Positions 4,803 through 39,912 of a stretch of DNA of 64,000 nucleotides are shown piece after piece (within the stretch, counting starts at the first letter, position 1; every line of letters starts with the position of its first letter). The notes beneath the pieces are model-generated. The model saw only the letters and a list, made by a program, of their open reading frames with translations, ran no database searches and was not told the origin of the DNA. The position numbers were made by a program, and so were the translations under genes. Origin of the DNA: Synechococcus sp. PROS-7-1 (GTDB taxonomy: Bacteria > Cyanobacteriota > Cyanobacteriia > PCC-6307 > Cyanobiaceae); contig NZ_CP047945.1 of the NCBI RefSeq assembly GCF_014279795.1, forward strand, positions 1,632,572 to 1,696,571. The letters run 5' to 3'.

Positions 4803-6546
4803 GCCGCGTCAACTCCAATCCATCGGCGAGCACCACGCCTTCCGCTTCAAAGCGGCGCAGAACGCGCAGCTGGAATTCGCGTTCGCTCACCCATTGGCCA
4901 CCCGATTTGGTGATCAGCAGCACCTCCAGATGGGTGCCGAGCGGAGTGATCCGGCGCACCCCCCGCAACACGGGTTCGCCAAGCAAGCGGTGATTCCAAT
5001 CGCTGTCATTCACGAACTGATCGATCTCCTCGCGAATGAGAGCAATGGCCTGGTCAATGGAGCTCTGGCGATGCGACACCACAAAGGTGACCAAACTGCC
5101 TGATCGCAACTTCGTGTGGTTCCGCAGCTGCCGGATCGTGCTGTTGTCGAGCGTGTCCACCCGCTGATCCAGGCAGCGGATCTGGGTGCTGAACAAGCCC
5201 ACATCCACCACCTCCCCTTCCACGCCATCGATCTCAATCCAGTCGCCGATGGCATAGCGATCCTCAATCAACACCAGCATGCCGGCGACAAAGTCGCGCA
5301 AGAGCCCCTGAAACACAAAGGCCAGGGCACCCAACAACGCACCACCGGCCAGCAGGATCGAAATCGACGCCGTGCGCACGCCGGGAACATCAAGCAACAC
5401 CCACAGGCCAACCACCATCAGGCAAGACACATCGATCAGTCGATGAATCACCCGCAGCAGGCTGCGGTAACGCTGGTCGCGTCGCGCCCGCTCCTGGGCC
5501 ATCACATCGACGTTGTCGGCCCATTGGTGCAGCAGAAACGTGCTCAGCGCCCGTCCCAGCAAGCCCACCATCGTCACCACCCCCACCTTGATCAAGGCAA
5601 ACGACGGTTGCAGCAACAGCTCGAGCGCCAGGGGGATCTGCCCGGGAACGGCCATCACGCCGAGGCCAACCATCATCACCAGCAGGAACAGCACCAGCAC
5701 CATCAGCACCCGGGTGATGGTGTGGGTGAGGTGCAGGCGAACCTCCATGGACCGCACGCGACGCCCCTCGTCGAAGCGCTGGCGCTGCAAACGCGACACC
5801 CTGCGCCGCAAAGCACTCCAGGCCAACAGCGACACCGCAATCATCCCGAGCAGGAGAAGCTCCACCACCAGGGTGATTCGCCAACGCTGGGCCAATTGTC
5901 TTGGCCGCAGAATTTCACGGGCATGGTTGATCCGGCTCTCCAGGATCGTGCGCCAACGCTGGGCCAACTGCTCGGTGGTGACGCCGTTGATCTCCGCATC
6001 GGCCTCCGTAACTGACAGCAGCGGGAAGGCGCGCTTGCGATCAGGCAGCCGCGCTTCAAGCACCTGATTGCCTTTGCCGTCGGAGACGATCTCAAGCTTG
6101 ACCGGTTGATCACTCAAGGCCATGCCAGGGCCGAGGCCGGCGGTGCAGACGTTGGTCTCACCACCCAACACACTGTCGAGCAGCCATTCGCTCAAGCGTT
6201 CGCCCTGGCCGCAGAGCTGGTTGGGGTCGTAGAGGAGGCGAAGGTTGCCTTCGATCACAGCAGCGCGTTGCCGAGCCGCTGGCGATCCGCCATCACTGTT
6301 AAGCACCGAACTGGATACGGTGATCGCCGGCACACCGAGAATGTTCACCTTCGCCAGTTCGTACTTGCCAACGGAAAGCCCACGTTCCGGCTGGGTGCGG
6401 TTCAGGAGATCGACATTGAGACCAGGAACCCCGAAGCCTGATGGTCCGCTGGAGGGTGCTGCCAGGGAGGGAATGGCCATGGACAACACCACAGCCAGCA
6501 ACGCCAGCAACGCTGCTCTGAGGGATCGGCGAAAGCAGCGCAACAA
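4795..6546 (-). CDS. MscS-family mechanosensitive ion channel with large N-terminal periplasmic domain
   Basis: 583 residues, about twice the size of E. coli MscS. A signal peptide (1-29) is followed by a periplasmic domain of about 180 residues. Four or more membrane helices then lead into the MscS pore/beta domain: AGGALLGALAFVFQGLLRDF, then DWIEIDGVEGEVVDVGLFSTQI. These channels open under membrane tension to release osmolytes on hypo-osmotic shock. Just before the first helix the string QLAQRWR occurs twice within about 25 residues, a small internal duplication. The gene follows a small secreted-protein gene by 10 bases on the same strand, so the two are probably co-transcribed. Confidence 0.9.
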   Translation of the reverse strand: MLRCFRRSLRAALLALLAVVLSMAIPSLAAPSSGPSGFGVPGLNVDLLNRTQPERGLSVGKYELAKVNILGVPAITVSSSVLNSDGGSPAARQRAAVIEGNLRLLYDPNQLCGQGERLSEWLLDSVLGGETNVCTAGLGPGMALSDQPVKLEIVSDGKGNQVLEARLPDRKRAFPLLSVTEADAEINGVTTEQLAQRWRTILESRINHAREILRPRQLAQRWRITLVVELLLLGMIAVSLLAWSALRRRVSRLQRQRFDEGRRVRSMEVRLHLTHTITRVLMVLVLFLLVMMVGLGVMAVPGQIPLALELLLQPSFALIKVGVVTMVGLLGRALSTFLLHQWADNVDVMAQERARRDQRYRSLLRVIHRLIDVSCLMVVGLWVLLDVPGVRTASISILLAGGALLGALAFVFQGLLRDFVAGMLVLIEDRYAIGDWIEIDGVEGEVVDVGLFSTQIRCLDQRVDTLDNSTIRQLRNHTKLRSGSLVTFVVSHRQSSIDQAIALIREEIDQFVNDSDWNHRLLGEPVLRGVRRITPLGTHLEVLLITKSGGQWVSEREFQLRVLRRFEAEGVVLADGLELTRLT

Positions 6547-6556
6547 GGGTGCGTAA

Positions 6557-6817
6557 TCAGAAACTCATGTCCAGCAGGGTATGGCCGCTCGGCGGTTGAT
6601 GCTTCTGGTCCCCACCGGCTGGCAGACGGAAGCCCTGCACGGAACGGCTCCAGTCGTCACTGGATTCAGCGAAGTAAGCCTGTTCAGCGCTGAGAACCAG
6701 AGACGTGTCGGCCTGATCTGTGGCGCTGATGGCGAGAGGCTCCATGGCGGAAGCACTCAGGGCAAGGGTTCCGGAAAGAAGCAAAGCGCCGAGTCCGGGA
6801 AGCAGAAAACGATGCAT
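6557..6817 (-). CDS. small secreted protein, unrecognised
   Basis: 86 residues when read from the ATG at 6817; a TTG two codons upstream is possible but weaker. A strong signal peptide (MHRFLLPGLGALLLSG to about residue 24, ASA-M) precedes a short polar mature region of about 60 residues with no recognised domain and no cysteine. It sits 10 bases upstream of the MscS-type channel gene on the same strand, suggesting one transcript starting in the gap 6818-6892. Function unknown. Confidence 0.6.
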   Translation of the reverse strand: MHRFLLPGLGALLLSGTLALSASAMEPLAISATDQADTSLVLSAEQAYFAESSDDWSRSVQGFRLPAGGDQKHQPPSGHTLLDMSF

Positions 6818-6892
6818 GGCCAAGGGTGTGAGAGGGGCCTGCTTTCGCTTTAGCTACGGCGAAAGAAAAATGGCAACGCAACCCATTGACGC

Positions 6893-7468
6893 TCAAGAGT
6901 TCTGCGGTAGCCATCGGCGCAGCAAGGGCAGACTGAGCCCGATCACGTTGGAATCACAGCCGTTGAGGCGCTCAACGACGCACCCGCCCCGCCCTTCCAA
7001 CGCAAATCCTCCGGCGCATTGCAACGGCTCACCACTGCTCACGTAGGCGTCGATCTCCGCATCACTCAGATCAGCAAACAACACACGCGTGGTGACGCAT
7101 TGGCATTGGCTCGAGATCGCGGTCGCTGGCGACGTCGCGATCAAACAGTGCCCGGTATGCAAGTCGCCCCAATGGCCACGCATCCGTTGCCACCGCGCTT
7201 TGGCTTCCTCGGCATCAGCGGGTTTGCCGAACACCTCGCCTTCAAACGCCAACACGGAGTCACACCCCAACACGGCATCGATGGTTGGATCGGTGAGCTG
7301 GGCATGCACCGCTTTGGCCTTGGCCTCAGCCAGCAGGCACACGAGGTGTGCTGGTTGGGGATGGTGAATGCCGTCTTCATCCACCCCACTCACCTGCACC
7401 CGATGGGGGATGCAGGCCTGCTCCAGCAGACGACGGCGAGCCGGGGATGCGGAAGCCAGCAGAAGCAT
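6893..7468 (-). CDS. maf: Maf-like nucleoside triphosphate pyrophosphatase
   Basis: 191 residues, the usual Maf length. The N-terminus [14 protein letters not shown] is the family signature (S/T-R-x-x-x-L-like nucleotide site); later come [16 protein letters not shown] and the C-terminal [13 protein letters not shown] and SNVIGLSLP segments. Maf enzymes hydrolyse non-canonical or modified nucleoside triphosphates to the monophosphate and pyrophosphate, acting in the cytoplasm as house-cleaning enzymes; some affect septum formation. It is transcribed away from the Npun_F0494-like gene that begins 48 bases beyond its start. Confidence 0.92.
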
Positions 7469-26169: not shown

Positions 26170-27498
26170 TCACCCGAAATCCACTCCAAATCGAGGGGTT
26201 ACGCCGAATGAGACACCTGGCGGGAGGATCCAAACCCCATGGCCGATAGCCAATGGATCGCGTGGGCTCATCCCTGAGCTGGCAAGGGTGACCACCTGAT
26301 CCACATGATTGGGGTGGTGCGAGAACGGAGCATTCCAGTCGCCATTGACAGGGCGTTTGTGGAAGAGCAGCCAACAGCGTTGGCGGAATGGTTCGAAGGT
26401 CCCGAGCCACCGGCTTGGATCGTCGGGATTGAGATTTCCACAGAGCAAAACAACCGGGAGCCGACCCTCTTGATCGAGAAAAAGCTGATAAGCCGCAGAG
26501 CCGATCGCCATCACAACCACGTGGATCCCTTCGCGGCGGAGTGCTTCGCGCAGCCCCAGCACCCCGAGCTGTTCTGGGACCACACGTTGATAGGTGTGCT
26601 GGCACTCCATGGAGAGAAGTTCAGCCTCATTCATCCAACGCTGATGCTTGGGGAGATGGGAGCGACTCAACACGGCCACCTTTGCGGATGCCCCCGACAT
26701 GAGCGGGCGCTCCGAAGGTCCACAATGCGCGATCTCCTGCAGCAGTGATGCGGCAAAACCTGGCTGGAGCCTGAGCAACTGCCCACGCACCACGTGCGCG
26801 GACAGATCCCCGCGCCCCAGGCAGACCGACGATCCCTGACGGCATGGCAGGGGAAGAACCCAGCTCTCGAGATCCCTGAGGTCAGCAAGCTGCAGCAGCT
26901 CAGTCGCCCAAACCGGCAAGGGGCGGCTGAGCAACAGTTTCTGCTGGAGACGTCGAGCAAGCAGCAGCAGCGGCAACAGCTCAATCACGAAATGCCCGAA
27001 GTGGGTAACGCTGTACTCGTTGAAGGGCCTCATGGCCACAAGCAACGGTTGCCGATCCAGAGCCGATGCATCTTGAACTGGAAAGTCGCGCCTGTCGCAA
27101 GAGAGCCTGAGCGTGCCGTCATCCAAGCGTTGAAATAACGGCTGATTCCGGTGGCGGCCATAAAAGTGATGCAGCTCGCGGCGATCGCGCTCGCAGAGCC
27201 AGAGCGAGCGAGAGCCGGGATGCATGAACCACTGCTTATCTTCCTGGCCTGCAAACCAGACCCAATGAAACAGCAGCAGCTCAAGCGGATCACTCAGCGC
27301 GATCCAACCCATCGGCATCCGCTGATCACCACCGAGCCGGAGGCGTCTAACAACACTGAATCCTGTGCAATCCGGTGATGGCGTCCAGATCGAAGGCAGA
27401 TCAGCGAGGGTCAACATTGGAAGGTGCATCAGCCGCCAATTGCCGCCATCCTCGGCCTGAGCAACCACAAACACGATGCGATCGGAATGGCGGCGCAA
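26170..27498 (-). CDS. GT61 (DUF563)-like glycosyltransferase
   Basis: 442 residues, soluble. The motif HFGHFVIELLPLL (about 166-178) matches the GHW-x-x-E signature of glycosyltransferase family 61 enzymes for polysaccharide synthesis, and VVVMAIGSAAYQLFL near residue 355 sits where the family GAxLxN motif falls, but degraded. Rich in Trp and His. The first 23 bases overlap the start of the divergent ion-channel gene; ATG 27429 would remove the overlap and give a slightly shorter protein. Confidence 0.6.
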   Translation of the reverse strand: MRRHSDRIVFVVAQAEDGGNWRLMHLPMLTLADLPSIWTPSPDCTGFSVVRRLRLGGDQRMPMGWIALSDPLELLLFHWVWFAGQEDKQWFMHPGSRSLWLCERDRRELHHFYGRHRNQPLFQRLDDGTLRLSCDRRDFPVQDASALDRQPLLVAMRPFNEYSVTHFGHFVIELLPLLLLARRLQQKLLLSRPLPVWATELLQLADLRDLESWVLPLPCRQGSSVCLGRGDLSAHVVRGQLLRLQPGFAASLLQEIAHCGPSERPLMSGASAKVAVLSRSHLPKHQRWMNEAELLSMECQHTYQRVVPEQLGVLGLREALRREGIHVVVMAIGSAAYQLFLDQEGRLPVVLLCGNLNPDDPSRWLGTFEPFRQRCWLLFHKRPVNGDWNAPFSHHPNHVDQVVTLASSGMSPRDPLAIGHGVWILPPGVSFGVTPRFGVDFG

Positions 27499-28222
27499 GC
27501 AAAGGAGGGAACGGATTTATGAACTGCTGCTAGGCCTCTGCCTGCTGGTGCTGGTCAGCTTCGCCTTTCCAAGAATCACCTGGCTGGGAAGCCTCGGCTA
27601 TGCCCTGATCGCCCTGCTGCTCACCCAGTTGGTGATGATCCGCAAGCCAGTGCTCACCCTGCAGGATCGTCTTTACCAAGCACTGGGACTCGTGGCGCTG
27701 TCGGCTTTGCTGCTGTGGCTGCTCACCCCGGTGCGCTGGGAGACCAGCGGCATGCCGCTGGTGTTGAGCTGGGGGGTCCTAGTGGGGTGGAGCGTGATCC
27801 GCCTGGTGGAACGCTTGGCCAGCGAACGGCGGGTCACCGCCGCCATGCTAATGGGGGCTGCTGCGGGCTATCTGCTGCTGGGGCTCACGGCCGGGCTGGT
27901 GATGAGCGCAGTGGAAACCATTCAGCCAGGCAGCTTCGAACCCCTCGACATCTCAATCACAGATGCTGCTGGCCAGAACAACACGGTGATCGAGTCAGGG
28001 CCGGTGTTCGCTCAGATCAATTACTTCGCCTTCATCTGCCTCACCACCGTTGGCTTTGGAGATATCAACCCCGAGCTTCCCCTGGCCAGGATGCTGGCCG
28101 TAGCGACTGGCATTGCCGGACCGCTTTACCTGGCGGTGGTGATGGGGGTGCTGATCGGGCGTTACGCCGGTGACCGTGAGATCGAAGACCGCCTGGAACA
28201 ACACAATCCCGATCGACGTTGA
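27476..28222 (+). CDS. potassium-channel family protein, filter GFGD
   Basis: 248 residues: basic N-terminus, about four helices, a re-entrant pore and a final helix. The selectivity filter is TTVGFGD (about 190-196), the K+-channel signature with Phe in place of the usual Tyr. The C-terminal tail is short and charged without an RCK domain. It is followed by a close paralogue 49 bases on, a tandem duplication. It starts divergently from, and overlaps, the GT61-like gene. Confidence 0.82.
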   Translation: MRSEWRRKQRRERIYELLLGLCLLVLVSFAFPRITWLGSLGYALIALLLTQLVMIRKPVLTLQDRLYQALGLVALSALLLWLLTPVRWETSGMPLVLSWGVLVGWSVIRLVERLASERRVTAAMLMGAAAGYLLLGLTAGLVMSAVETIQPGSFEPLDISITDAAGQNNTVIESGPVFAQINYFAFICLTTVGFGDINPELPLARMLAVATGIAGPLYLAVVMGVLIGRYAGDREIEDRLEQHNPDRR

Positions 28223-28271
28223 AGACAAACAGCCGCGCTGTGGTGAGACTTCCAGAAGACCGACGCCGACC

Positions 28272-28997
28272 GTGCCGAGCTTTCCGTCTTTTCTGCTGCA
28301 GCAACGCAATGGCCCCGGCCAGCGGGATTACCGGGTGCTGCTGGCTCTCACTCTGGTCGTGCTGATCAGCTTCGCCTTTCCGCCCCTGAACTGGCTCGGC
28401 GCTCCCTGCTACTCCCTGATCGCTCTCTGGTTCACGCGGGTGCTGGGCAGCAGCGGCAACGCCCACCCCTGGAGCGACCGGCTTTATCAAGCTCTGGGGC
28501 TGTTCGCGGTGGTGTCGCAGTGGATATGGCTGATCACACCGGTGAAGCTGGAGAGCAGCGGCATCCCCCTGGTCACCAGCTGGTGCTTGCTGGTGGGCTG
28601 GAGTGTGATCCGGCTGGTGCGTGCCCTGGCCAGCGAAACCAAGGTGAATGAACGGGTGCTGATGGGGGCCGCTGCGGGATATCTGCACCTGGGCCTCACC
28701 GCCGGTCTGGTGATGGGGGCTGTGGAAACGATTCAGCACGGGAGCTTCAGGCCGCTGACCATGGCCTCAATGATGGAACTCAGCTCCGACAGCGTGCTGA
28801 TGGTGAGCAGCTCGTTTGCAGAGATCAACTACTACGCCTTTGTGTGTCTCACCACCGTGGGCTACGGGGACATCAATCCCGTTCTGCCACTGGCCCGAAT
28901 GTTGAGCATCGCCACGAGCATCATCGGCCCCCTCTATCTGGCGGTGGTGATGGGCGTGCTGATCGGCCGCTTCAGCACGGATCTGAAAGGGGACTGA
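28272..28997 (+). CDS. potassium-channel family protein, filter GYGD
   Basis: 241 residues from GTG 28272; a longer frame would overlap the upstream gene. Clearly a paralogue of the gene before it: both share SFAFP near the start, DRLYQALGL, LVGWSVIRLV, MGAAAGYLxLGLTAGLVM and IGPLYLAVVMGVLIGR. The filter is the canonical TTVGYGD (about 193-199). The pore-preceding loop (NYYAFVCL) is conserved. The 3' end overlaps the convergent ribD by 26 bases. Confidence 0.82.
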   Translation: MPSFPSFLLQQRNGPGQRDYRVLLALTLVVLISFAFPPLNWLGAPCYSLIALWFTRVLGSSGNAHPWSDRLYQALGLFAVVSQWIWLITPVKLESSGIPLVTSWCLLVGWSVIRLVRALASETKVNERVLMGAAAGYLHLGLTAGLVMGAVETIQHGSFRPLTMASMMELSSDSVLMVSSSFAEINYYAFVCLTTVGYGDINPVLPLARMLSIATSIIGPLYLAVVMGVLIGRFSTDLKGD

Positions 28998-31091: not shown

Positions 31092-33638
31092 CTAACCCCG
31101 CTCCGCCCCCGGAATCCGTTGCCAATCCGTGTGCGTTGCCCACAGTCCCCAGATCGCCATCGCCCGTAGGTAGTGGCAAGCCCGGAAGGTGTTCACCGCT
31201 GTGATCGCCTCCGGCGTGCGGAACTGCAGACCACCGCTGTACACCTGCTCCACAACCGCTGAGCAGATCGCTTCCGCGGTTTGGCCTTCGCCCATCAGGC
31301 GGTAGTAGCTGGCAATGCCGAAGTTGATGCCCGTCCACACCTCCAAGGGATGGGTGCCATTGGGATCCAGGGGTGTGCCATCGCGGCGCAGACCATTGGC
31401 CACCCCGAGGCTGCCGCCTTGGAACTTCTCAAAGCAGCTCTCCTTCACGGCCTTGAGCGTGCTGCGGCTGTTGGCCTCACTCACCACCGGCTCCAGCCCC
31501 AGCAGACGCGCATAGAAATCACCACAGAGCTGATCGGCCATCACCACCGGCGTACCGCTTTCGGCATCGATGTCGTAGTACTCGCCATTCCAGAGCAGAC
31601 GATCAAAGTTGCTGCGCGATTGCTCAAGCCAGGCGCTGAAGGTGTGCTGATCGCTGCCCGTGTCCAGCCCCAGCTCCTGCTGCAATCGTTGGGCCATGGC
31701 CAGAGCGGCTTCCAGCGCAGCGATCCACAACGCCCCGCAGTAGGCACTCACCCCCTTCAGCGGCCAGTCGTCGAAGGTCTGGTCAGGAGCACCTCCGTTG
31801 TCGGGCAAGCCGTCGTTGTTCACATCAAAACGCTTCAGGTAGTGCAAGGCCTGCACCGCCGCAGGCCAGCAATCGGCCAGAAATGTGAGATCTTCGCCGG
31901 TGGGTGCCAGCTTGAAGGTGCGCCACACCTGCAGCACAAAGTCACTGGCGAGGTCTTTCCAGAGATTGCAATCCTGATACGCCGTGTAATTGGTGGCATC
32001 AAAGGGCACTTCGTTGGGAGCCCCCAGGTCGTGCGGCGTGGCCCCCTCCACCTTGCGATCGGCTTCCACACGGCCGCGCCCTTGGGTGAAATACCAACCG
32101 ATCGGCCGCTGGGTGGCATCCGCCGCCGGGATCGCTCTGGCGAAACTGCGCAGCACGGCCTTGTCGAGCTCCGGCCAGAGCTGCAGCAGGGCAAAGGAGC
32201 CATAGAGCCGCACATCCAAACTTTCGTACCAGGCGTAGTCGAGGCACTCGAGCACGCCGAAGCGGCCGTGGGGATCCTTACTCGATGCCGCGGTCCAGAG
32301 GCTTCCGCCACTGGCCAGGTCGTAGAGCTCATTAAACAGAGCCATACGCAAGGCTTCCGGCAGCTCCTTGCGCGCCAGCACCGGTGCCTGCCAGGCATCA
32401 ATCAGCTCACGCCACTGGCGCCAGTCGCGCAGCGCTTCCGCTGCCAACGCCGCAGCATTGCGACCATCGGCTCCGAAGAAATCGGTGTAGCGGCGCAGAT
32501 CACGCACACCGGTCGCGAAGGCGGTAACCGGCAGATCCCAGCTGATCGCAATTGGAATCTCTCGCGATTCCCCGGGAGCCAGGGTGAACGTGAGGGCGAT
32601 CGCTGCACTGGCTTGCTCGCCCGCACGGCTGGAGCGATCGTTGTTGCTGTTGGGAATGCGGCCCTCCGCAGCGAACGATTGCCAGATCTCCTGGCCATCG
32701 CCCGTAGGGTCCCAACGGCTGCAGCGCAGCACTTCCACGCCCTTCAGGGCGTCCGGCACCGCCAGACACCACTGACCCTGGCCCTCTCCGATCGGCTCAC
32801 TGCGCTGGCCCTCCAACACAATGCCGCGCACACCCTCTTGATCCAACCAACGGTTGCGTTGTCCTTCGCCCTGGCCGATCGCCGGCGCGTAGTTGTGCTC
32901 CGGGCTGCCGTCGTCGCGGAAGTGCACCTCTGCCGAGGGGTCGGTGTTGAAGAACCAACCCACGGTGTTGCGCCAACTCAGCAGCAACGACAGATCCAAC
33001 GGTTGATCGCTGGGATTGCACAGGGTCCAGCGGAACACGGCCACCGGGTAACTGGTGCGTTGGTAGTCGCCTGGAAGAATCGGGCTGAACGCCTCGCAAC
33101 TCACCTCGGCGTCGTACACACCCTCGTAACGGGTCCAGCTCAGGGGATAGCGGGCGGCGTAGGTGCCGGTGCTGCGCTCCGGCGTGCTGGCGGGATACCA
33201 ATCCCAGGCAGCCAGGGGCTCACCGCTGTTGGGGCGTGAGGCATCCGCCTCGGGCTTCACGGCTAAAGCGTGGGCCCGTTTGCTGCTGCCGTTGCTTTCG
33301 AACAGGGCGAACTGGCAGTCGGGGATCGTTCCATACCAGTGCTCTCCACCATCGAGGTGCCAGAGGTTGAAGTCACCGCGGGAGCTGCGGCCGATGCAGC
33401 CAGCACCAAAGCCCCCCAGGGGCATGCCGTGCCAGGGGCCGTCATCGAGATTGCTGGCGTAACGCACCGTGTAGGGCTGATCCCAGCCCAAACCGAACGG
33501 CCGGCTCCAACTGGCCTCAGGAGGCGTCCAGGCCTGCGGCCGGGAACTGCGCCGCATGAGCGAGCGCAGGGCAGACAGACCGAAGGGAGCCATGAAACGG
33601 CGGAAGGTCGCCCCAGATTGCCAGACCTTGTCAGACAA
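31092..33638 (-). CDS. GH116 family beta-glucosidase/glucosylceramidase-like
   Basis: 848 residues with no signal peptide. The N-terminal beta domain carries GMPLGGFGAGCIGRS (about 72-86). The (alpha/alpha)6 barrel has the family nucleophile Glu in FNELYDLASGGSLW (about 437) and the acid/base Asp in APDQTFDDWPLKG (about 620). Animal GBA2 and bacterial TxGH116 are the characterised relatives, cleaving beta-glucosides. In a cyanobacterium the target might be a glucolipid or a compatible-solute glycoside; this is inference. Divergent from the amidohydrolase gene. Confidence 0.88.
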   Translation of the reverse strand: MSDKVWQSGATFRRFMAPFGLSALRSLMRRSSRPQAWTPPEASWSRPFGLGWDQPYTVRYASNLDDGPWHGMPLGGFGAGCIGRSSRGDFNLWHLDGGEHWYGTIPDCQFALFESNGSSKRAHALAVKPEADASRPNSGEPLAAWDWYPASTPERSTGTYAARYPLSWTRYEGVYDAEVSCEAFSPILPGDYQRTSYPVAVFRWTLCNPSDQPLDLSLLLSWRNTVGWFFNTDPSAEVHFRDDGSPEHNYAPAIGQGEGQRNRWLDQEGVRGIVLEGQRSEPIGEGQGQWCLAVPDALKGVEVLRCSRWDPTGDGQEIWQSFAAEGRIPNSNNDRSSRAGEQASAAIALTFTLAPGESREIPIAISWDLPVTAFATGVRDLRRYTDFFGADGRNAAALAAEALRDWRQWRELIDAWQAPVLARKELPEALRMALFNELYDLASGGSLWTAASSKDPHGRFGVLECLDYAWYESLDVRLYGSFALLQLWPELDKAVLRSFARAIPAADATQRPIGWYFTQGRGRVEADRKVEGATPHDLGAPNEVPFDATNYTAYQDCNLWKDLASDFVLQVWRTFKLAPTGEDLTFLADCWPAAVQALHYLKRFDVNNDGLPDNGGAPDQTFDDWPLKGVSAYCGALWIAALEAALAMAQRLQQELGLDTGSDQHTFSAWLEQSRSNFDRLLWNGEYYDIDAESGTPVVMADQLCGDFYARLLGLEPVVSEANSRSTLKAVKESCFEKFQGGSLGVANGLRRDGTPLDPNGTHPLEVWTGINFGIASYYRLMGEGQTAEAICSAVVEQVYSGGLQFRTPEAITAVNTFRACHYLRAMAIWGLWATHTDWQRIPGAERG

Positions 33639-33684
33639 GCCAGGGGATGGCTACCAGCAGAGCAGCAGGCTTCAGCACGTTTTC

Positions 33685-35367
33685 ATGAGCGCGCACACCT
33701 CCGCCGACCTGATCCTGCAGGGGGGCACGCTGATCACCATGAATCCAGCCCAGCCCAGAGCTGAAGCGATGGCCATCCGCGATGGGCTGATTCAAGCCGT
33801 GGGATCGCAGGAGCAGGTGATGGCCTGCCAAGGGCCGACAACCCAGGTGGTGGACCTGGCTGGGCACACGCTGCTGCCCGGCTTCATCGATGCCCACGGG
33901 CATTTCAGCAATGCCCTGATGGTGGTGGACTGGGCCAACATCCAGCGGCCGCCAGCCGGTCCGGTCACGGACATCGCCAGCCTGCAGCAGGTGCTGCGCG
34001 ATCACCTCACGGCCCATCCACTGGCACCAGGACAGTGGATGGTGGGCTACGGCTATGACCCCGATGGACTTGCCGACGGCCGTGGGCTCGACCGGGCCGA
34101 CATCGACCCCATCACGCCCGATAACCCCGTGATGCTCATTCACAACTCCAACCACGGTGCCGTGCTCAACAGCAAAGCCCTGGAGCTGGTGGGCTACGAC
34201 GCAGCCACACCGGATCCGGCCGGCGGGGTGATCGTGAGGCGGGCGGGAAGCCAGGAACCTGCAGGCCTGGTGATGGAAACCGCGTTCATCCCCCTGTTCG
34301 TGCAAATGCCGAAACCCTCTCAAGAGGCGTTGCTCGAGCGGTTTGCCGCGGCTCAGGCCCTTTACACCTGCAAAGGCATCACCACCATTCAGGAGGGAGC
34401 CACCACCGCAGCCGATCTGACAATGTTGCAGCGGGGAGCCTCAGAGGGGCGACTGCTGGTGGATGTCGTGTCCCTCCCCCTGGTGCTGGAGGTGCCGAAG
34501 ATCCTCAGTGAGCGCTTTCCCGATGGGCATCACCACAGCCTCGAGCTGCCCGAAGCCGCGCGGGATGCCTTCGGCACTTATCACAACCGGTTCAAGCTGC
34601 AGGGCATCAAGTTGCTCCTGGATGGTTCTCCTCAGGGGAAGACTGCGTTCTGGAGCGAACCCCTGCTCACCGGGGGACCGAACGGTGAAGCCAACTGGCG
34701 GGGGCAACCGATCGTGCCGCCGGAAGAATTGAACAAAGCCGTGGCCACTCTGAGCCGCCAGGGCATTCAACTTTTCGCGCACTGCAACGGCGATGCCGCG
34801 ATCGCGATGATGATCGAAGCAGTGCGCAAGGCCGGTCTTCAGGCAGACCAGGACCACCGCACGGTGATCATCCACTCCCAGTTCATGGCCCCCGGTCAGC
34901 TGGAGGAGTACGTGGAACTCGGGCTGCATCCCAGTTTTTTCACGGTGCACGCCTTTTTCTATGGCGATGTACACCTCGCCAATCTGGGAGCCGATCGCTG
35001 CAGCCGCCTCAGCCCCATGGCCTCCGCCATGCGCCTGGGCCTGCATTGCTCCAACCACAACGACTTCTCGGTGACACCAATTGAGCCGATGCGGATGGTG
35101 CAAACCGCGATGCAGCGGCGCAGTCGCAGCGGAACCGTGCTGGGTGAGGGGGAGCGTGTGAGCGCTGAACAGGCGTTGATGGCTCTCACCCTCGAGGCCG
35201 CCTGGCAGCTGCGTGAGGAAACAAGCAAAGGCAGCCTTGAGGTGGGCAAACGCGCTGATCTGGTGGTGCTCGATCAAGACCCCACGACCGTCAATCCAGA
35301 CGACCTCAATGGCATTGAGGTGATCGCCACCATCAAAGACGGAGCCTGCGTGCATGGCTCCCTCTGA
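33685..35367 (+). CDS. YtcJ-like metal-dependent amidohydrolase
   Basis: 560 residues from ATG 33685, chosen since earlier codons overlap the divergent GH116 gene. The amidohydrolase metal site GFIDAHGHFSN (about 68-78) precedes a TIM barrel with FAHCNGDAAI and HSQFMAPGQ and a C-terminal strand KGSLEVGKRADLVVLDQDP. Related enzymes hydrolyse N-substituted formamides, hydantoins or similar; substrate unknown. The last 14 bases overlap the CobW-type gene. Confidence 0.85.
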   Translation: MSAHTSADLILQGGTLITMNPAQPRAEAMAIRDGLIQAVGSQEQVMACQGPTTQVVDLAGHTLLPGFIDAHGHFSNALMVVDWANIQRPPAGPVTDIASLQQVLRDHLTAHPLAPGQWMVGYGYDPDGLADGRGLDRADIDPITPDNPVMLIHNSNHGAVLNSKALELVGYDAATPDPAGGVIVRRAGSQEPAGLVMETAFIPLFVQMPKPSQEALLERFAAAQALYTCKGITTIQEGATTAADLTMLQRGASEGRLLVDVVSLPLVLEVPKILSERFPDGHHHSLELPEAARDAFGTYHNRFKLQGIKLLLDGSPQGKTAFWSEPLLTGGPNGEANWRGQPIVPPEELNKAVATLSRQGIQLFAHCNGDAAIAMMIEAVRKAGLQADQDHRTVIIHSQFMAPGQLEEYVELGLHPSFFTVHAFFYGDVHLANLGADRCSRLSPMASAMRLGLHCSNHNDFSVTPIEPMRMVQTAMQRRSRSGTVLGEGERVSAEQALMALTLEAAWQLREETSKGSLEVGKRADLVVLDQDPTTVNPDDLNGIEVIATIKDGACVHGSL

Positions 35368-36259
35368 ACTGCAATCCCTTCTGGGGTTACCGACCACCCT
35401 GGTGGGGGGCTATCTCGGCGCCGGAAAAACCAGTCGCATTAACCGCTGGCTGGAGAATCCAGCCCATGCCAACACAGCCGTGCTGGTGAATGATCTGGGC
35501 TCGATCAACATCGACGCCCAACGCCTGCGCGCAACCCATGGCCAGGTGATCGAACTCACCCAGGGGTGCCTCTGCTGCAGCCTGCGCGATGGCCTGGGCG
35601 AGGCCCTGCTGCAACTGGCCGCCGTACCCAGGCGGCCGCGCCGATTGCTGATCGAAACCAGCGGCATGGCCCTGCCCCTGCGGGTGGGGGAACAGGTGAG
35701 GCTCTACGGCCTGCACCTGGAGAACATCCTTCTACTCGTGGACCTGGAGCGGATCGAGTCCCTCTGGCATGACCGCTGGGTCGGCGACCTGGTGCAGCGC
35801 CAGTTCGAAGGAGTGGATCTCATCGTGCCCACAAAAGTGGATCGCCTGGATCCCGCGCAGGTTGAGCGGCGTCAGCGCTGGCTCCAGGAGCACCTGAAAA
35901 GCTTGCGCAGTTGCAAGGAGCCAGCACCGTTCCATCCCGGCGCCGAAGCCTTGGTGGAAAGCGAATGCTGGCAGCGGCAACATCCCATCCCACGGCAGGT
36001 GCTGCTGCAATGGTTGGCCTCCCTCGATCCGGCACTGCTGCGGCTGAAAGGAGAGGTGTGGCTGGAAGAGCAACCCGGCGGCCCCCTGCGCTTGGATCGG
36101 GTCGGCGAGCGGGTGCAGCTGGATCAATCGCCACAGCGGCCCTGGCGTGACGGGGAGTCGCGCTGCAGCCGACTGGTGGCGATCCGTCGCAGCGGTTCCC
36201 AGCAACAGCACTGGCCATCCGAGGAGATCACGGCCAATCCCATGCCTGTCTGTCCATGA
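35354..36259 (+). CDS. COG0523 (CobW/YciC-like) GTPase metallochaperone
   Basis: 301 residues. Walker A GGYLGAGKT at about 18-26, the metal-binding GCLCC motif at about 71-75, LLIETSGMALP (switch/Walker B) and the guanine motif TKVD near 158. The C-terminal domain is short. COG0523 proteins pass zinc or other metals to client enzymes using GTP. It overlaps the amidohydrolase gene by 14 bases and the MFS gene by 4, so the neighbouring metalloenzyme is a natural client candidate. Confidence 0.85.
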   Translation: MAPSELQSLLGLPTTLVGGYLGAGKTSRINRWLENPAHANTAVLVNDLGSINIDAQRLRATHGQVIELTQGCLCCSLRDGLGEALLQLAAVPRRPRRLLIETSGMALPLRVGEQVRLYGLHLENILLLVDLERIESLWHDRWVGDLVQRQFEGVDLIVPTKVDRLDPAQVERRQRWLQEHLKSLRSCKEPAPFHPGAEALVESECWQRQHPIPRQVLLQWLASLDPALLRLKGEVWLEEQPGGPLRLDRVGERVQLDQSPQRPWRDGESRCSRLVAIRRSGSQQQHWPSEEITANPMPVCP

Positions 36260-37815
36260 GCACGTCATCGCCAACGACCCTGAGCGTGTCCGCGCTCACC
36301 GTTCCCTATCTGGGCATCCTGGCCAGCCTGCAGTTGATCGATCCCAGCGTGGCCAACATCGCGCTGGTCAAGGCCAGCCAAGCGATGGACATGCATGGAG
36401 CGACCCTGGCGCTGGCAGCCAGCACCTCAACCCTGGCGCAAGCCGCCACCGTTCTGGTGATGGGGTTTCTCGGAGATCGCCTCGGACGGCGGCGCATCCT
36501 GGCGGCCTCCCTACTCCTGACGATCGCGGGCAACAGCATCACCGTGCTGGCCCCGGACACGGGCCTGTTTCTGGTGGGGCGGGCGTTCACAGGCATCGCC
36601 CTGGGCTCCGTGCTCGCTGCAACATTTGCGGCCGTTCGCTTCGTCAGCACCCCGCAAACCCTGGGCCGTGCCCTTGGGTTATGGAATCTGCTGATCATCA
36701 TCGGCTTCATCCTTGGCTCCTTGGCGGGAGGCACCCTGGCCAACCTCAGCTGGCGACTGGCGATGGCGCTGGTCCCTCTGATCAGCGCTCTCTGCCTGCT
36801 GGCCCTTCCCGCACTGGTGCCGCCAATGCCTGCCAACCGGGAACTGCGCGCCGATGGCCCCGGCCTGGTGAGCATTGCCGCTGCCATGGTGCTGTTTCTC
36901 TACGGCGTGAGCCAAGCCGTGTCTGGGCTCACGCGCGTGGAATTCTGGCTGCCGACCGTGGCGGGCCTGGTGCTCTTCGCTGTGCACTACCAGCTGGAAC
37001 GACGCAGCAGCCAGCCGATGTTTCCGCCCGGGCTCTATGAACGGGGACTGTTTGCCGCCGCCGTGGTGAGCGGGATCGGCTGGAACTTCGCCCAGTCGGT
37101 CGTTCAACTGCAGACCAGCAATTTCTGGCAGGTGGTGCAGCGCTTCAGCACCACCCAGGTTGCCCTTGGCCAATTGCCACTCTTGATCTGCTTCGGTGGC
37201 GGCGGCATCGTGGCCGGACGGCTCATGCGACCGGGACGCCGCATGCTCCAGCTGATGGGCTGGGGAAGCCTGGTGTTGGTGGCTGGGGTGGCGCTGCTGG
37301 GAGGCATTCGGGCCGATACCCCCTATCCCATGCTGCTGCCGGCACTGGTGCTGGTGGGCCTGGGGCTGGCCTTCGTGGCCGTCCCCCAATCAGCCCTGTT
37401 TGTGCAGGAAGCTCCATCCGACAGTTTCGGAGCTGTCACGGCCTTCCGCACAACCACAGGCCAACTCGGATTCGCCCTTGGCCTGGCAGCCAGTGGCGCG
37501 ATGGTGAGTGGATTCGGATTCACCGATCTCCGCCTGAAACTGCTCGAAAACGGTGTTCCTGAAGGGGATGTGGCTGCTGCCATGCAGCAGGTGAAGCAAC
37601 TGCTGCGAAGCGGAACCAGCTCAGGCGCAGACAGCGCAGGATCAGCGTTAACGGAGGCGATCGGCAGGTCCTATGCCCAGGGCTTGGCTGGAACCCTTTG
37701 GGTGGTGGCCGCCATCACCGCCCTACTGCTGATCATCAGCCTGTTGCTGCTGATCATCGGCAGAGAGCAGCAGCTCCTTGATCAAGCTGGCGTCGACTCA
37801 GCATCCAGGCCCTAG
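36256..37815 (+). CDS. MFS transporter, DHA2-like (14-helix)
   Basis: 519 residues with about fourteen hydrophobic helices. MFS signature FLGDRLGRRRILAASLLL (about 74-91) and the DHA2-type LGLWNLLIIIGFILGSLAGG. Such proteins export drugs or metabolites with proton antiport. The start ATG overlaps the COG0523 stop, placing it third in the amidohydrolase operon, so it may move the substrate or product of that enzyme. A 10-base direct repeat sits at its stop codon. Confidence 0.85.
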   Translation: MSTSSPTTLSVSALTVPYLGILASLQLIDPSVANIALVKASQAMDMHGATLALAASTSTLAQAATVLVMGFLGDRLGRRRILAASLLLTIAGNSITVLAPDTGLFLVGRAFTGIALGSVLAATFAAVRFVSTPQTLGRALGLWNLLIIIGFILGSLAGGTLANLSWRLAMALVPLISALCLLALPALVPPMPANRELRADGPGLVSIAAAMVLFLYGVSQAVSGLTRVEFWLPTVAGLVLFAVHYQLERRSSQPMFPPGLYERGLFAAAVVSGIGWNFAQSVVQLQTSNFWQVVQRFSTTQVALGQLPLLICFGGGGIVAGRLMRPGRRMLQLMGWGSLVLVAGVALLGGIRADTPYPMLLPALVLVGLGLAFVAVPQSALFVQEAPSDSFGAVTAFRTTTGQLGFALGLAASGAMVSGFGFTDLRLKLLENGVPEGDVAAAMQQVKQLLRSGTSSGADSAGSALTEAIGRSYAQGLAGTLWVVAAITALLLIISLLLLIIGREQQLLDQAGVDSASRP

Positions 37816-38488: not shown

Positions 38489-38986
38489 ATGCCCAATCAG
38501 CGTCGCGCTGCGGTGCTGGCAGGCCTGTCAGTCCTGCTTGGCAGTTTCAGCGCACCCGTGGTGATGGCCGAAGAGCTGTACAGCCTGGACACCACCTGCA
38601 GAACCGGCGATCGATCCTTTGCCTGTCGCGTGCAGGCGGTCAACGTCGACGACACCACCGAATACCGCCATCAGTTCGGCTCCCGCACCGTGAGCTATCG
38701 CGTGATCGAAGATCCCTTCGTGCGCATTGAGGGCCGAGGCAGCAACGCCAAGCCCTGGATCTCGGTGAAGAACGCGTTGATCAACTTCAAAACAGAAGAG
38801 TTGTGCTTCAACGATGAGGCCTTCTGCGTGAAGAACCCCTCATTCCTGGCCGACGTTCTGATCAACAGCGGTGATGCCATGCAGGGCCGAACCCGGGTGG
38901 GCATGGCCTTCGCTCCCAATGGTCGCGTGGATGTGGCCTGTTTTGACAACGGTTGTGACCGCCTCAAGGAGGCCATCAAGCAATGA
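38489..38986 (+). CDS. secreted conserved hypothetical protein
   Basis: 165 residues from ATG 38489; an in-frame ATG at 38453 would add 12 residues of weak coding. Signal peptide (about 1-27, VVMAEE) and a mature beta-rich domain with six Cys, probably in pairs (TTCRTGDRSFACR, ELCFNDEAFCV, ACFDNGC). Its stop overlaps the start of the repeat-rich gene by four bases (ATGA), so the two are made together. No family recognised. Confidence 0.65.
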   Translation: MPNQRRAAVLAGLSVLLGSFSAPVVMAEELYSLDTTCRTGDRSFACRVQAVNVDDTTEYRHQFGSRTVSYRVIEDPFVRIEGRGSNAKPWISVKNALINFKTEELCFNDEAFCVKNPSFLADVLINSGDAMQGRTRVGMAFAPNGRVDVACFDNGCDRLKEAIKQ

Positions 38987-39912
38987 CAAAAACCATCAGA
39001 AACCGCTGCACACGACCGATCGCAGGATGCCTCGGCCTGCTCCTCTCCCTGCAACCCGCGGCCGGCCTGGCCGCCCTCTCCAGCGACGACGCCATCCATC
39101 AGGAGTCCGCGCAAGAACAGCTCCTGAGCCAACGCCGCGGTGGTGGGTCTAGAGGTGGTGGGTCCAGAGGTGGTGGCTCGCGCAGCAGTGGATCAAGGAG
39201 CAGCGGTCGAACCGGCTTCAGCTCCTACAGCGGCAGTCGTCAGACCACCCGTCAAACAACCCGTGGCAACCGCCAAAGCACCCGCCAGGGCAATCGCAGC
39301 ACGCGTCAGGGCCAAGTGCGCAGCAACAGCGGCACACGCCAAAGCACCCGTCAGGGCAACCGCGATACCCGCCAGACCACGCGCGGCAGCAACATCGATG
39401 CCCGCCAGCAGGGACGGACGGACCGCACCAACAGCCGCCAGAACAACCGCACGGATCGCGTCGATACAAGGGCCGATACACGCCGTGATGTGGTCAACAA
39501 CTGGGATCGCTATGGCAATGGTTGGTACAGCAACAACAACTGGACCAACAACCGACCCTGGACCTATGGATGGTACGGAAGCTCCTACTACAACAACTGG
39601 GGGTGGTATCCCGGTCAGGCTGCGGCCTGGGGCCTGGCTGGTCTGGCCACTTTTGGCGTGATCAACAGCCTCGTGACATCAGCGCAAAGCAATGAGGTGA
39701 GCTACATCGAGGTTCCCGACTCCGATTACTACCTCTATTACCCAAGCGTGACCGCCACGGGCGATGTGGTGACGTTTGAGGTGAATGACGGGGGAAGCAC
39801 GGTGCGCTTCAGTGCCGACTGCCGCCAGGGGACACTCAACGGCGCCACACCGCGCAATGCCGATGAGGCACAACTGCTGAACGCCGCATGCCAAGTGGCC
39901 TTTGGTCAATAA
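38983..39912 (+). CDS. secreted protein with Arg/Thr/Gln-rich repeat tract
   Basis: 309 residues. A signal peptide (about 1-31) is followed by Gly/Arg/Ser triplets (three GGGSR units), then about 90 residues of near-tandem repeats on the theme NRxTRQ (TTRQTTRGNRQSTRQGNR and variants), then a Tyr/Trp/Asn-rich segment (about 165-205: NGWYSNNNWTNNRPW), a short hydrophobic helix, and a small beta domain. The repeat tract is very basic and almost free of hydrophobic residues. Nucleic-acid or polysaccharide binding outside the cell is possible but unproven. Confidence 0.7.
   Translation: MTKTIRNRCTRPIAGCLGLLLSLQPAAGLAALSSDDAIHQESAQEQLLSQRRGGGSRGGGSRGGGSRSSGSRSSGRTGFSSYSGSRQTTRQTTRGNRQSTRQGNRSTRQGQVRSNSGTRQSTRQGNRDTRQTTRGSNIDARQQGRTDRTNSRQNNRTDRVDTRADTRRDVVNNWDRYGNGWYSNNNWTNNRPWTYGWYGSSYYNNWGWYPGQAAAWGLAGLATFGVINSLVTSAQSNEVSYIEVPDSDYYLYYPSVTATGDVVTFEVNDGGSTVRFSADCRQGTLNGATPRNADEAQLLNAACQVAFGQ

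Follow-up and report, generated by a model that had tools for sequence, protein, structure and literature searches.

Organization of the operon and proposed role of the GTPase

Does a small cyanobacterial operon encode a GTPase that supplies metal to the hydrolase encoded beside it? The question was raised by three consecutive genes in a stretch of 64,000 nucleotides (nt) from Synechococcus sp. PROS-7-1, hereafter the window, which encode an amidohydrolase, a COG0523 GTPase and an MFS transporter. Judged from the genomic evidence, the GTPase would be a G3E metal insertase or chaperone, and its client would be the co-translated amidohydrolase; we give this reading a probability of about 0.5. 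As a genomic prediction, the chaperone–client idea is well supported; we infer the interaction, the metal, the direction of transfer and the substrate. The genes and their overlaps were located as follows:

33685–35367, forward strand: gene of the Amidohydro_3 enzyme, ATG 33685 to stop 35367, 560 amino acids
35354–36259, forward strand: gene of the COG0523 GTPase, ATG 35354 to stop 36259, 301 amino acids
36256–37815, forward strand: gene of the MFS transporter, ATG 36256 to stop 37815, 519 amino acids
35354–35367, forward strand: 14-nt overlap of the hydrolase end with the GTPase start
36256–36259, forward strand: 4-nt ATGA overlap of the GTPase end with the MFS start

The reading of open reading frames (ORFs) confirmed the positions, the common strand and the two overlaps reported in the first-pass annotation, and its three family assignments agreed with Pfam matches that were all over their cut-offs. 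Among the NCBIfam matches listed for the three proteins, every model stayed below its cut-off. The enzyme ORF has a further in-frame ATG at 33556, which would give 603 amino acids; 33685 is the likelier start because orthologues align from about residue 1–7 of that start. The base composition of the operon showed nothing unusual compared with its surroundings.

Close coupling of the two genes was common among linked enzyme–GTPase loci (labels with L and G denote our loci and genomes). A start giving a 4-nt overlap was possible in 19 of the 26 linked loci read, and a start between a 14-nt overlap and a 3-nt gap in 25 of the 26, where start codons were inferred from ORFs and not proven. No overlap was read for L036, in which the enzyme gene is interrupted, nor for L063, where the reading fell on a second COG0523; about 63 nt lie between the enzyme and COG0523 genes there.

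Conservation of the enzyme–GTPase pair

The family of the window was surveyed in 201 genomes, including the window's own. Close orthologues of both the enzyme and the GTPase were found in the same seven genomes and were adjacent in all of them, and the order enzyme, GTPase, MFS was kept in the six other carriers. The GTPase orthologues of these six scored 285.5–325.7 bits with 49–55% identity (48–55% over whole alignments), and the next match scored 107.8 bits. Identity to the window was 72–75% for the enzyme orthologues of the five intact carriers, 65 and 75% for the two pieces in G062, and 65–66% for the MFS orthologues. Four more family genomes contained distant enzyme homologues only (35–44%, E ≤ 1e-60). 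The first-pass annotation had proposed a chaperone–client pair, and in this synteny check the GTPase orthologue was never apart from an amidohydrolase gene in the seven carriers, one enzyme being interrupted.

The interrupted gene is that of G062 (L036), where some 1.2 kb of sequence at about 5996–7212, including a DDE transposase-like ORF, divides it; the GTPase and MFS genes stay open there, aligning over the full length or nearly so. A DDE_3 transposase was also seen further upstream in this locus. A thiamine-diphosphate enzyme was found near the operon in L037, L038 and L039, and inspection by eye showed one in L035 and L040 too. A search of 378 class genomes with the GTPase profile (E ≤ 1e-45) gave four carriers, all in the window's family; this threshold was probably too strict for proteins of the Pegethrix type.

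No relatives were found with the single GTPase as query against genome contigs, and an alignment of six enzymes was used for the wider search instead. The best 80 of 530 loci, from named sources, were taken with neighbourhoods of up to 8 kb on each side, less at contig ends. Nine of these enzymes had 55–74% identity in the best segment and 53–74% over the alignment, and the other 71 were at ≤44%. The nine belonged to a Cyanobium, four Mycobacterium or Mycolicibacterium, Pegethrix, a Hyphomicrobiaceae bacterium, an Acidobacteria bin and an actinobacterium; the Cyanobium enzyme (L060), with 74% identity to that of the window, was the nearest named enzyme, from which Cyanobium probably belongs to the window's family. 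A COG0523 gene lay directly downstream of the enzyme gene in six of the nine loci at ≥55% identity (L060, L063, L064, L065, which is cut by a contig end, L066 and L067), and near none of the 71 at ≤44%. The pair recurs with tight coupling in other phyla, the six loci covering four. Some of the contigs outside the family may be misassigned to their taxon, because several sources are metagenome bins.

A survey profile was built from ten linked GTPases. In 299 Pseudomonadota genomes, 12 of the 13 non-self matches of at least 198 bits stood directly after a PF07969-type enzyme on the same strand (G1110, G1167 twice, G1260, G1117, G1033, G1029, G1173, G1171, G1082, G1006 and G1130), the exception being a second GTPase copy in G1110. 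Among the next 18 Pseudomonadota loci fetched, one followed an enzyme (L244). Five of the 12 enzymes (L227–L231) formed a subgroup barely matched by the Amidohydro_3 profile built here; the L228 enzyme scored 780 bits against NCBIfam PRK09061 (cut-off 340). When the generic Pfam model was used as a control on 40 genomes of Pseudomonadota, none of the 24 COG0523-type loci fetched was linked. This control was imperfect: 30 loci were fetched, six of them without a COG0523-type ORF, and the known linked loci G531:C57 and G1006:C1:2369019 were in the hit list and outside the sample.

The pairing was also reflected in the phylogeny of the GTPases. In a 45-row tree, the ten enzyme-linked rows fell into one group (support 90/89) together with a single other row, L144, on a long branch. 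L144 is the second COG0523 of the actinobacterium, and its neighbourhood had not been seen beforehand. It then proved to be linked, lying directly downstream of a divergent Amidohydro_3 gene with a possible 4-nt GTGA overlap. In an 87-row tree, the 23 linked rows needed five label changes against a shuffled mean of 20.4, and none of 500 shuffles was as low; this label test was not blind, many rows having been collected with the profile of linked proteins. In the same tree 54 unlinked rows stood apart (89/93), and ten rows not counted as linked were placed among the linked ones. Both trees carry warnings of long branches. The 45-row tree omits L155, a fragment, and neither tree includes the L065 GTPase, which is truncated at a contig end; near-identical rows were dropped as well, as were 13 PF02492 loci in which no ORF had CxCC.

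Three of these ten rows not counted as linked follow a gene for a hydrolase of the metallo-β-lactamase (MBL) fold, L193 and L252 closely and L012 (locus L041) after about 375–415 nt. The three MBL-fold hydrolase–COG0523 loci are:

L041, 8980–10386
L193, 2429–3847
L252, 3322–4824

The MBL hydrolases of L041 and L193 exceeded the NCBIfam GntH cut-off of 333 (530 and 511 bits, respectively), and that of L252 matches Pfam MBL models.

The patchy distribution, with seven carriers among 201 family genomes and enzyme relatives in other phyla, could also be that of a small catabolic or detoxification cassette, explained by shared regulation and horizontal transfer, in which the GTPase serves another target, e.g., another enzyme of the pathway. 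A second enzyme homologue (about 30% identity) lies upstream in four of the six other carriers, and in Pegethrix (L063, 173–5071) the order is amidohydrolase, COG0523 and a second Amidohydro_3 gene downstream, which places a possible client on either side of the GTPase; therefore, the client could be such a partner enzyme. However, an amidohydrolase gene immediately precedes that of the GTPase in every linked locus, whereas transporters and other neighbours vary. We consider the cassette explanation somewhat unlikely.

Related loci without the pair

Several results weigh against a dedicated insertase. Firstly, the enzymes of L061, L062 and L068, all at ≥55% identity, had no COG0523 neighbour. 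The genus to which L066 belongs was examined in 148 genomes, with stretches of 1.5 kb on each side; the enzyme clade occurred in five (1000–1081 bits; next group 642–682), and a COG0523 neighbour occurred in one. Four of the five mycobacterial enzymes were thus without COG0523 in the stretches fetched, L061 and L062 belonging to two of these four genomes, and this means that the enzyme can occur with no GTPase gene beside it. PF02492 genes were present elsewhere in the searched mycobacterial genomes G528 and G529.

Secondly, the 12 Pseudomonadota cases represent about seven lineages, because L224–L226 and L228–L231 are near-copies of each other. In 296 Actinomycetota genomes, one of the 29 non-self loci fetched was directly coupled to an Amidohydro_3 gene (L192) and one was convergent (L195); in addition, L201 has an Amidohydro_1 gene some 200 nt upstream of COG0523, L202 is a near-copy of L201, and L196 has a nearby Amidohydro_1 gene in divergent orientation. 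None of the eight loci from 119 Acidobacteriota genomes was linked. In 262 genomes of the cyanobacterial class, three of the 25 loci fetched were linked, all in carriers already known; these were the top scorers at 408–449 bits, namely the window, G062 and Pegethrix (G315, by coordinates), and the 22 other COG0523s scored 219–264 bits and were unlinked. The profile score predicted the link in the Pseudomonadota sample, but not in cyanobacteria, nor well in Actinomycetota. The linked profile alone marks no separate function, because unlinked cyanobacterial COG0523s reach such scores.

Thirdly, COG0523s close to the linked ones occur without the enzyme in the 87-row tree, and a single clade of all 23 linked GTPases was rejected (P value of the approximately unbiased test, p-AU, 0.009). 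A clade of the eight GTPases linked to the closest enzyme clade had a p-AU of 0.27, which does not reject it and does not show it. Since the linked labels cluster and yet the single clade is rejected, the pairing is, by these trees, a feature that keeps recurring in one part of the COG0523 tree, gained or lost along the way, and not the mark of a uniform subfamily. The four mycobacterial enzymes without COG0523 in the stretches fetched, and the close COG0523s without the enzyme, speak against the description of the pair as "dedicated" in the first-pass annotation.

Finally, a Zur box before 33685, which had been suggested as a feature to look for, was missing: the consensus TGATAATNATTATCA had no match within three mismatches in the 64-kb window. 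In the host genome, one Zur-like site with one mismatch and three with two were found, and the backwards control pattern gave one. The site with one mismatch (G000:C1:987707-987721, L268) is located just before a znuA-like ORF, beside znuC-like and znuB-like ORFs, all three being named by eye. In M. smegmatis, CobW-like and amidohydrolase genes are separate predicted Zur sites (PMC7174638).

These findings also bear on the possibility of a general role in zinc economy, in which the GTPase would be a COG0523 of the ZigA/ZagA kind that stands in a catabolic operon by chance, the amidohydrolase not being its specific client. Zinc homeostasis is a known role of COG0523 proteins (PMC2770081, PMC9164220), and the scores of the unlinked cyanobacterial members with the linked profile are in agreement with it. 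On the other hand, the site before the znuA-like ORF has no counterpart in the window, the score with the ZigA equivalog model was far below the cut-off (NF038288, 93.6 bits vs. 600), two further proteins of COG0523 type (L001 and L002) are encoded in the genome, and the enzyme–GTPase pairing recurs in separate lineages. A general zinc-economy role is, in our judgement, unlikely.

Properties of the amidohydrolase

The enzyme matched PF07969 Amidohydro_3 with 337.9 bits (gathering cut-off 29.7), which places it in the superfamily, and by family it is predicted to be a YtcJ-like metal-dependent hydrolase. Residues H71, H73, K309, H366, H397 and D460 were identical in all 28 aligned enzyme relatives, and these six candidate metal residues align with those of 3icj and 3igh in the pattern HxH, K, H, H, D. 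Their metal role is assigned by analogy with the amidohydrolase superfamily. K309 is a possible carboxylated lysine. The predicted model had a mean predicted local distance difference test score (pLDDT) of 92.5. The nearest solved chain was 3igh (Z 45.0, 3.7 Å over 477 residues), followed by 3icj (Z 44.7, 4.1 Å over 465 residues), with identities of 21–23%. Barrel fold and metal residue pattern are like those of the PF07969/YtcJ-like proteins 3icj, 3igh, NfdA and metallo bile salt hydrolase (PMC13081902). Furthermore, a PF07969 enzyme has been described as metal-dependent and most enhanced by Zn (PMC13081902).

No signal sequence was seen by eye in the window enzyme. The linked enzymes of L064, L065 and L066 have twin-arginine N-termini, and that of L063 has a signal-like N-terminus. 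Substrates of the twin-arginine translocation (Tat) pathway fold in the cytoplasm. The Tat-like linked enzymes would do so as well, which would offer a cytoplasmic insertase an opportunity.

Properties of the GTPase

The GTPase matched PF02492 cobW (112.6 bits) and PF07683 CobW_C (50.2 bits), both over the cut-off, and accordingly has the domains of a COG0523 protein. Its CxCC motif consists of C72, C74 and C75. These cysteines, G24-K25-T26, E101, K161 and D163 were invariant in the ten linked GTPases aligned, as were most P-loop residues, and the [NST]KxD motif of the window protein is TKVD at 160–163. The protein has CxCC, P-loop, Walker B glutamate and [NST]KxD; it is presumed to be a metal insertase. 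A histidine stretch is taken to indicate that a protein stores and delivers metal (Haas 2009, PMC2770081); no histidine-rich stretch was seen by eye in the GTPase, which suits an insertase role.

The coupling might serve assembly or protection instead of metal delivery, with the GTPase doing for the amidohydrolase what MeaB does for its mutase; MeaB is a G3E cofactor insertase that also protects intermediates (PMC2770081). However, the invariant CxCC of the ten linked GTPases is what is expected for metal handling, and a role of the MeaB kind appears very improbable.

Both the CobW equivalog (TIGR02475, 110.8 bits vs. cut-off 332.1) and the ZigA equivalog were rejected, and by these models the GTPase is a COG0523 protein outside the two groups. 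The host genome (2.57 Mb, one contig) contains four PF02492 proteins: the window GTPase, the COG0523-type L001 and L002, and the short L003, a 216-residue frame in which no CxCC ORF was found. In the COG0523 tree L002 groups with COG0523s that include L235, L245 and L246, and these three have a CobU-like ORF upstream by eye; for this reason the host probably has its own cobalamin CobW.

The sole solved relative found by sequence was YjiA of E. coli (1nij, 4ixm; E 2.3e-14, 20% identity). YjiA was also the top Foldseek match to the GTPase model, with a TM-score of only 0.45. The model was middling (pLDDT 76.9, predicted template modelling score 0.65) and served for the fold look-up only.

The transporter

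The MFS protein matched PF07690 MFS_1 with 125.3 bits, over the cut-off. The best curated model, TIGR00711 for EmrB-type exporters, scored 71.3 bits, below its cut-off of 230.2, and does not assign the protein to this type. The third place in the operon assigned to the transporter by the first-pass annotation was kept in the family carriers, but as a conserved member elsewhere it was rejected: among the 80 named enzyme loci, an MFS homologue (E ≤ 1e-8) was found at Cyanobium L060 only. The transporters beside linked pairs varied, with an MFS protein in the window, an MFS and a TctC protein near L261, a solute-binding protein and two oligopeptide-type permeases after the pair in L263, and an OppC-type permease upstream of the pair in L262. 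Because they differ, movement of substrate or product appears to fit these transporters better than movement of metal.

Proposed mechanism and comparison with known systems

In the proposed mechanism, the GTPase with Mg-GTP would bind Zn(II) or another divalent metal at CxCC, and the loaded protein would use its variable C-terminal domain to dock on the apo-amidohydrolase. GTP hydrolysis would release the metal to the barrel site, for which H71, H73, K309, H366, H397 and D460 are the candidates, and the MFS protein would move the substrate or product of the enzyme and not the metal. The COG0523 proteins YeiR and YjiA favour Zn(II) (PMC7895991).

A close parallel in kind is Nha3, the activator of Fe-type nitrile hydratase, which is likewise a CxCC-bearing GTPase of COG0523 and acts in the maturation of a hydrolytic metalloenzyme (PMC2770081, PMC9164220). 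It differs in its client, a nitrile hydratase and not an amidohydrolase barrel, and belongs to subgroup 2 of the 2009 analysis (PMC2770081). UreG is the G3E insertase for urease and takes part in nickel insertion (PMC2770081); urease itself belongs to the amidohydrolase superfamily (PMC13081902). UreG, like the proposed GTPase, is therefore a G3E insertase for an enzyme of this superfamily, so a G3E GTPase serving such a barrel has a precedent. In contrast, UreG is smaller and comes from a different G3E subfamily; its metal is nickel, and its partners are UreD and UreF (PMC2770081). By analogy, the GTPase may work like Nha3 or UreG and load a metalloenzyme. CobW of cobalamin synthesis shares the two Pfam domains and CxCC with the window GTPase, which, however, stays under the CobW cut-off and stands apart from the L002 group in the tree. 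The zinc chaperones ZigA, ZagA and YciC have the same COG0523 architecture; the window GTPase differs in its low ZigA score and in the missing Zur box.

A wider generalization is tentative and, to us, doubtful: one region of the COG0523 tree might consist of operon-encoded, GTP-driven insertases dedicated to metallohydrolases, mostly amidohydrolases, with MBL-fold hydrolases in a neighbouring clade, and Tat-like enzymes such as those of L064, L065 and L066 would be loaded in the cytoplasm before export.

Many COG0523 GTPases have no known client, and gene-cluster analysis has been proposed for predicting clients (PMC9164220). No paper stating an insertase relation between COG0523 and an amidohydrolase was found in the literature covered, which excludes Edmonds 2021 and Additional File 3 of Haas 2009. 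The word "amidohydrolase" is absent from the main texts of PMC2770081, PMC9164220 and PMC7895991, and "COG0523", "CobW" and "chaperone" are absent from the main text of PMC13081902. A COG0523 GTPase serving an amidohydrolase barrel would, if true, be without an example so far, and amidohydrolase-superfamily enzymes besides urease would depend on a G3E GTPase for their metal. This would bear on the production, metallation and assay of such enzymes. The recurrent, closely coupled amidohydrolase is a concrete and cheaply testable candidate for a COG0523 client.

Upstream region and neighbouring features

The gene before the operon, on the opposite strand, encodes a GH116 glycosidase. The stretch between the two was taken as:

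33594–33684, no strand: short intergenic stretch that separates the operon from the divergent GH116 gene, assuming a GH116 start at ATG 33593

No sigma-70 consensus was found (0.3 expected), and two terminator-like sites were found (2.0 expected). A perfect 6-1-6 palindrome, CTTGTC-A-GACAAG, lies between the GH116 gene and the operon at 33627–33639 and may be due to chance. Elsewhere in the window, 27476–28222 and 28170–28997 overlap and are paralogues in tandem; by eye, they show signatures like those of potassium channels (TVGFGD/TVGYGD). In addition, 38983–39912 is a 309-residue ORF with a low-complexity stretch of the RGGGSRGGGSRGGGS type.

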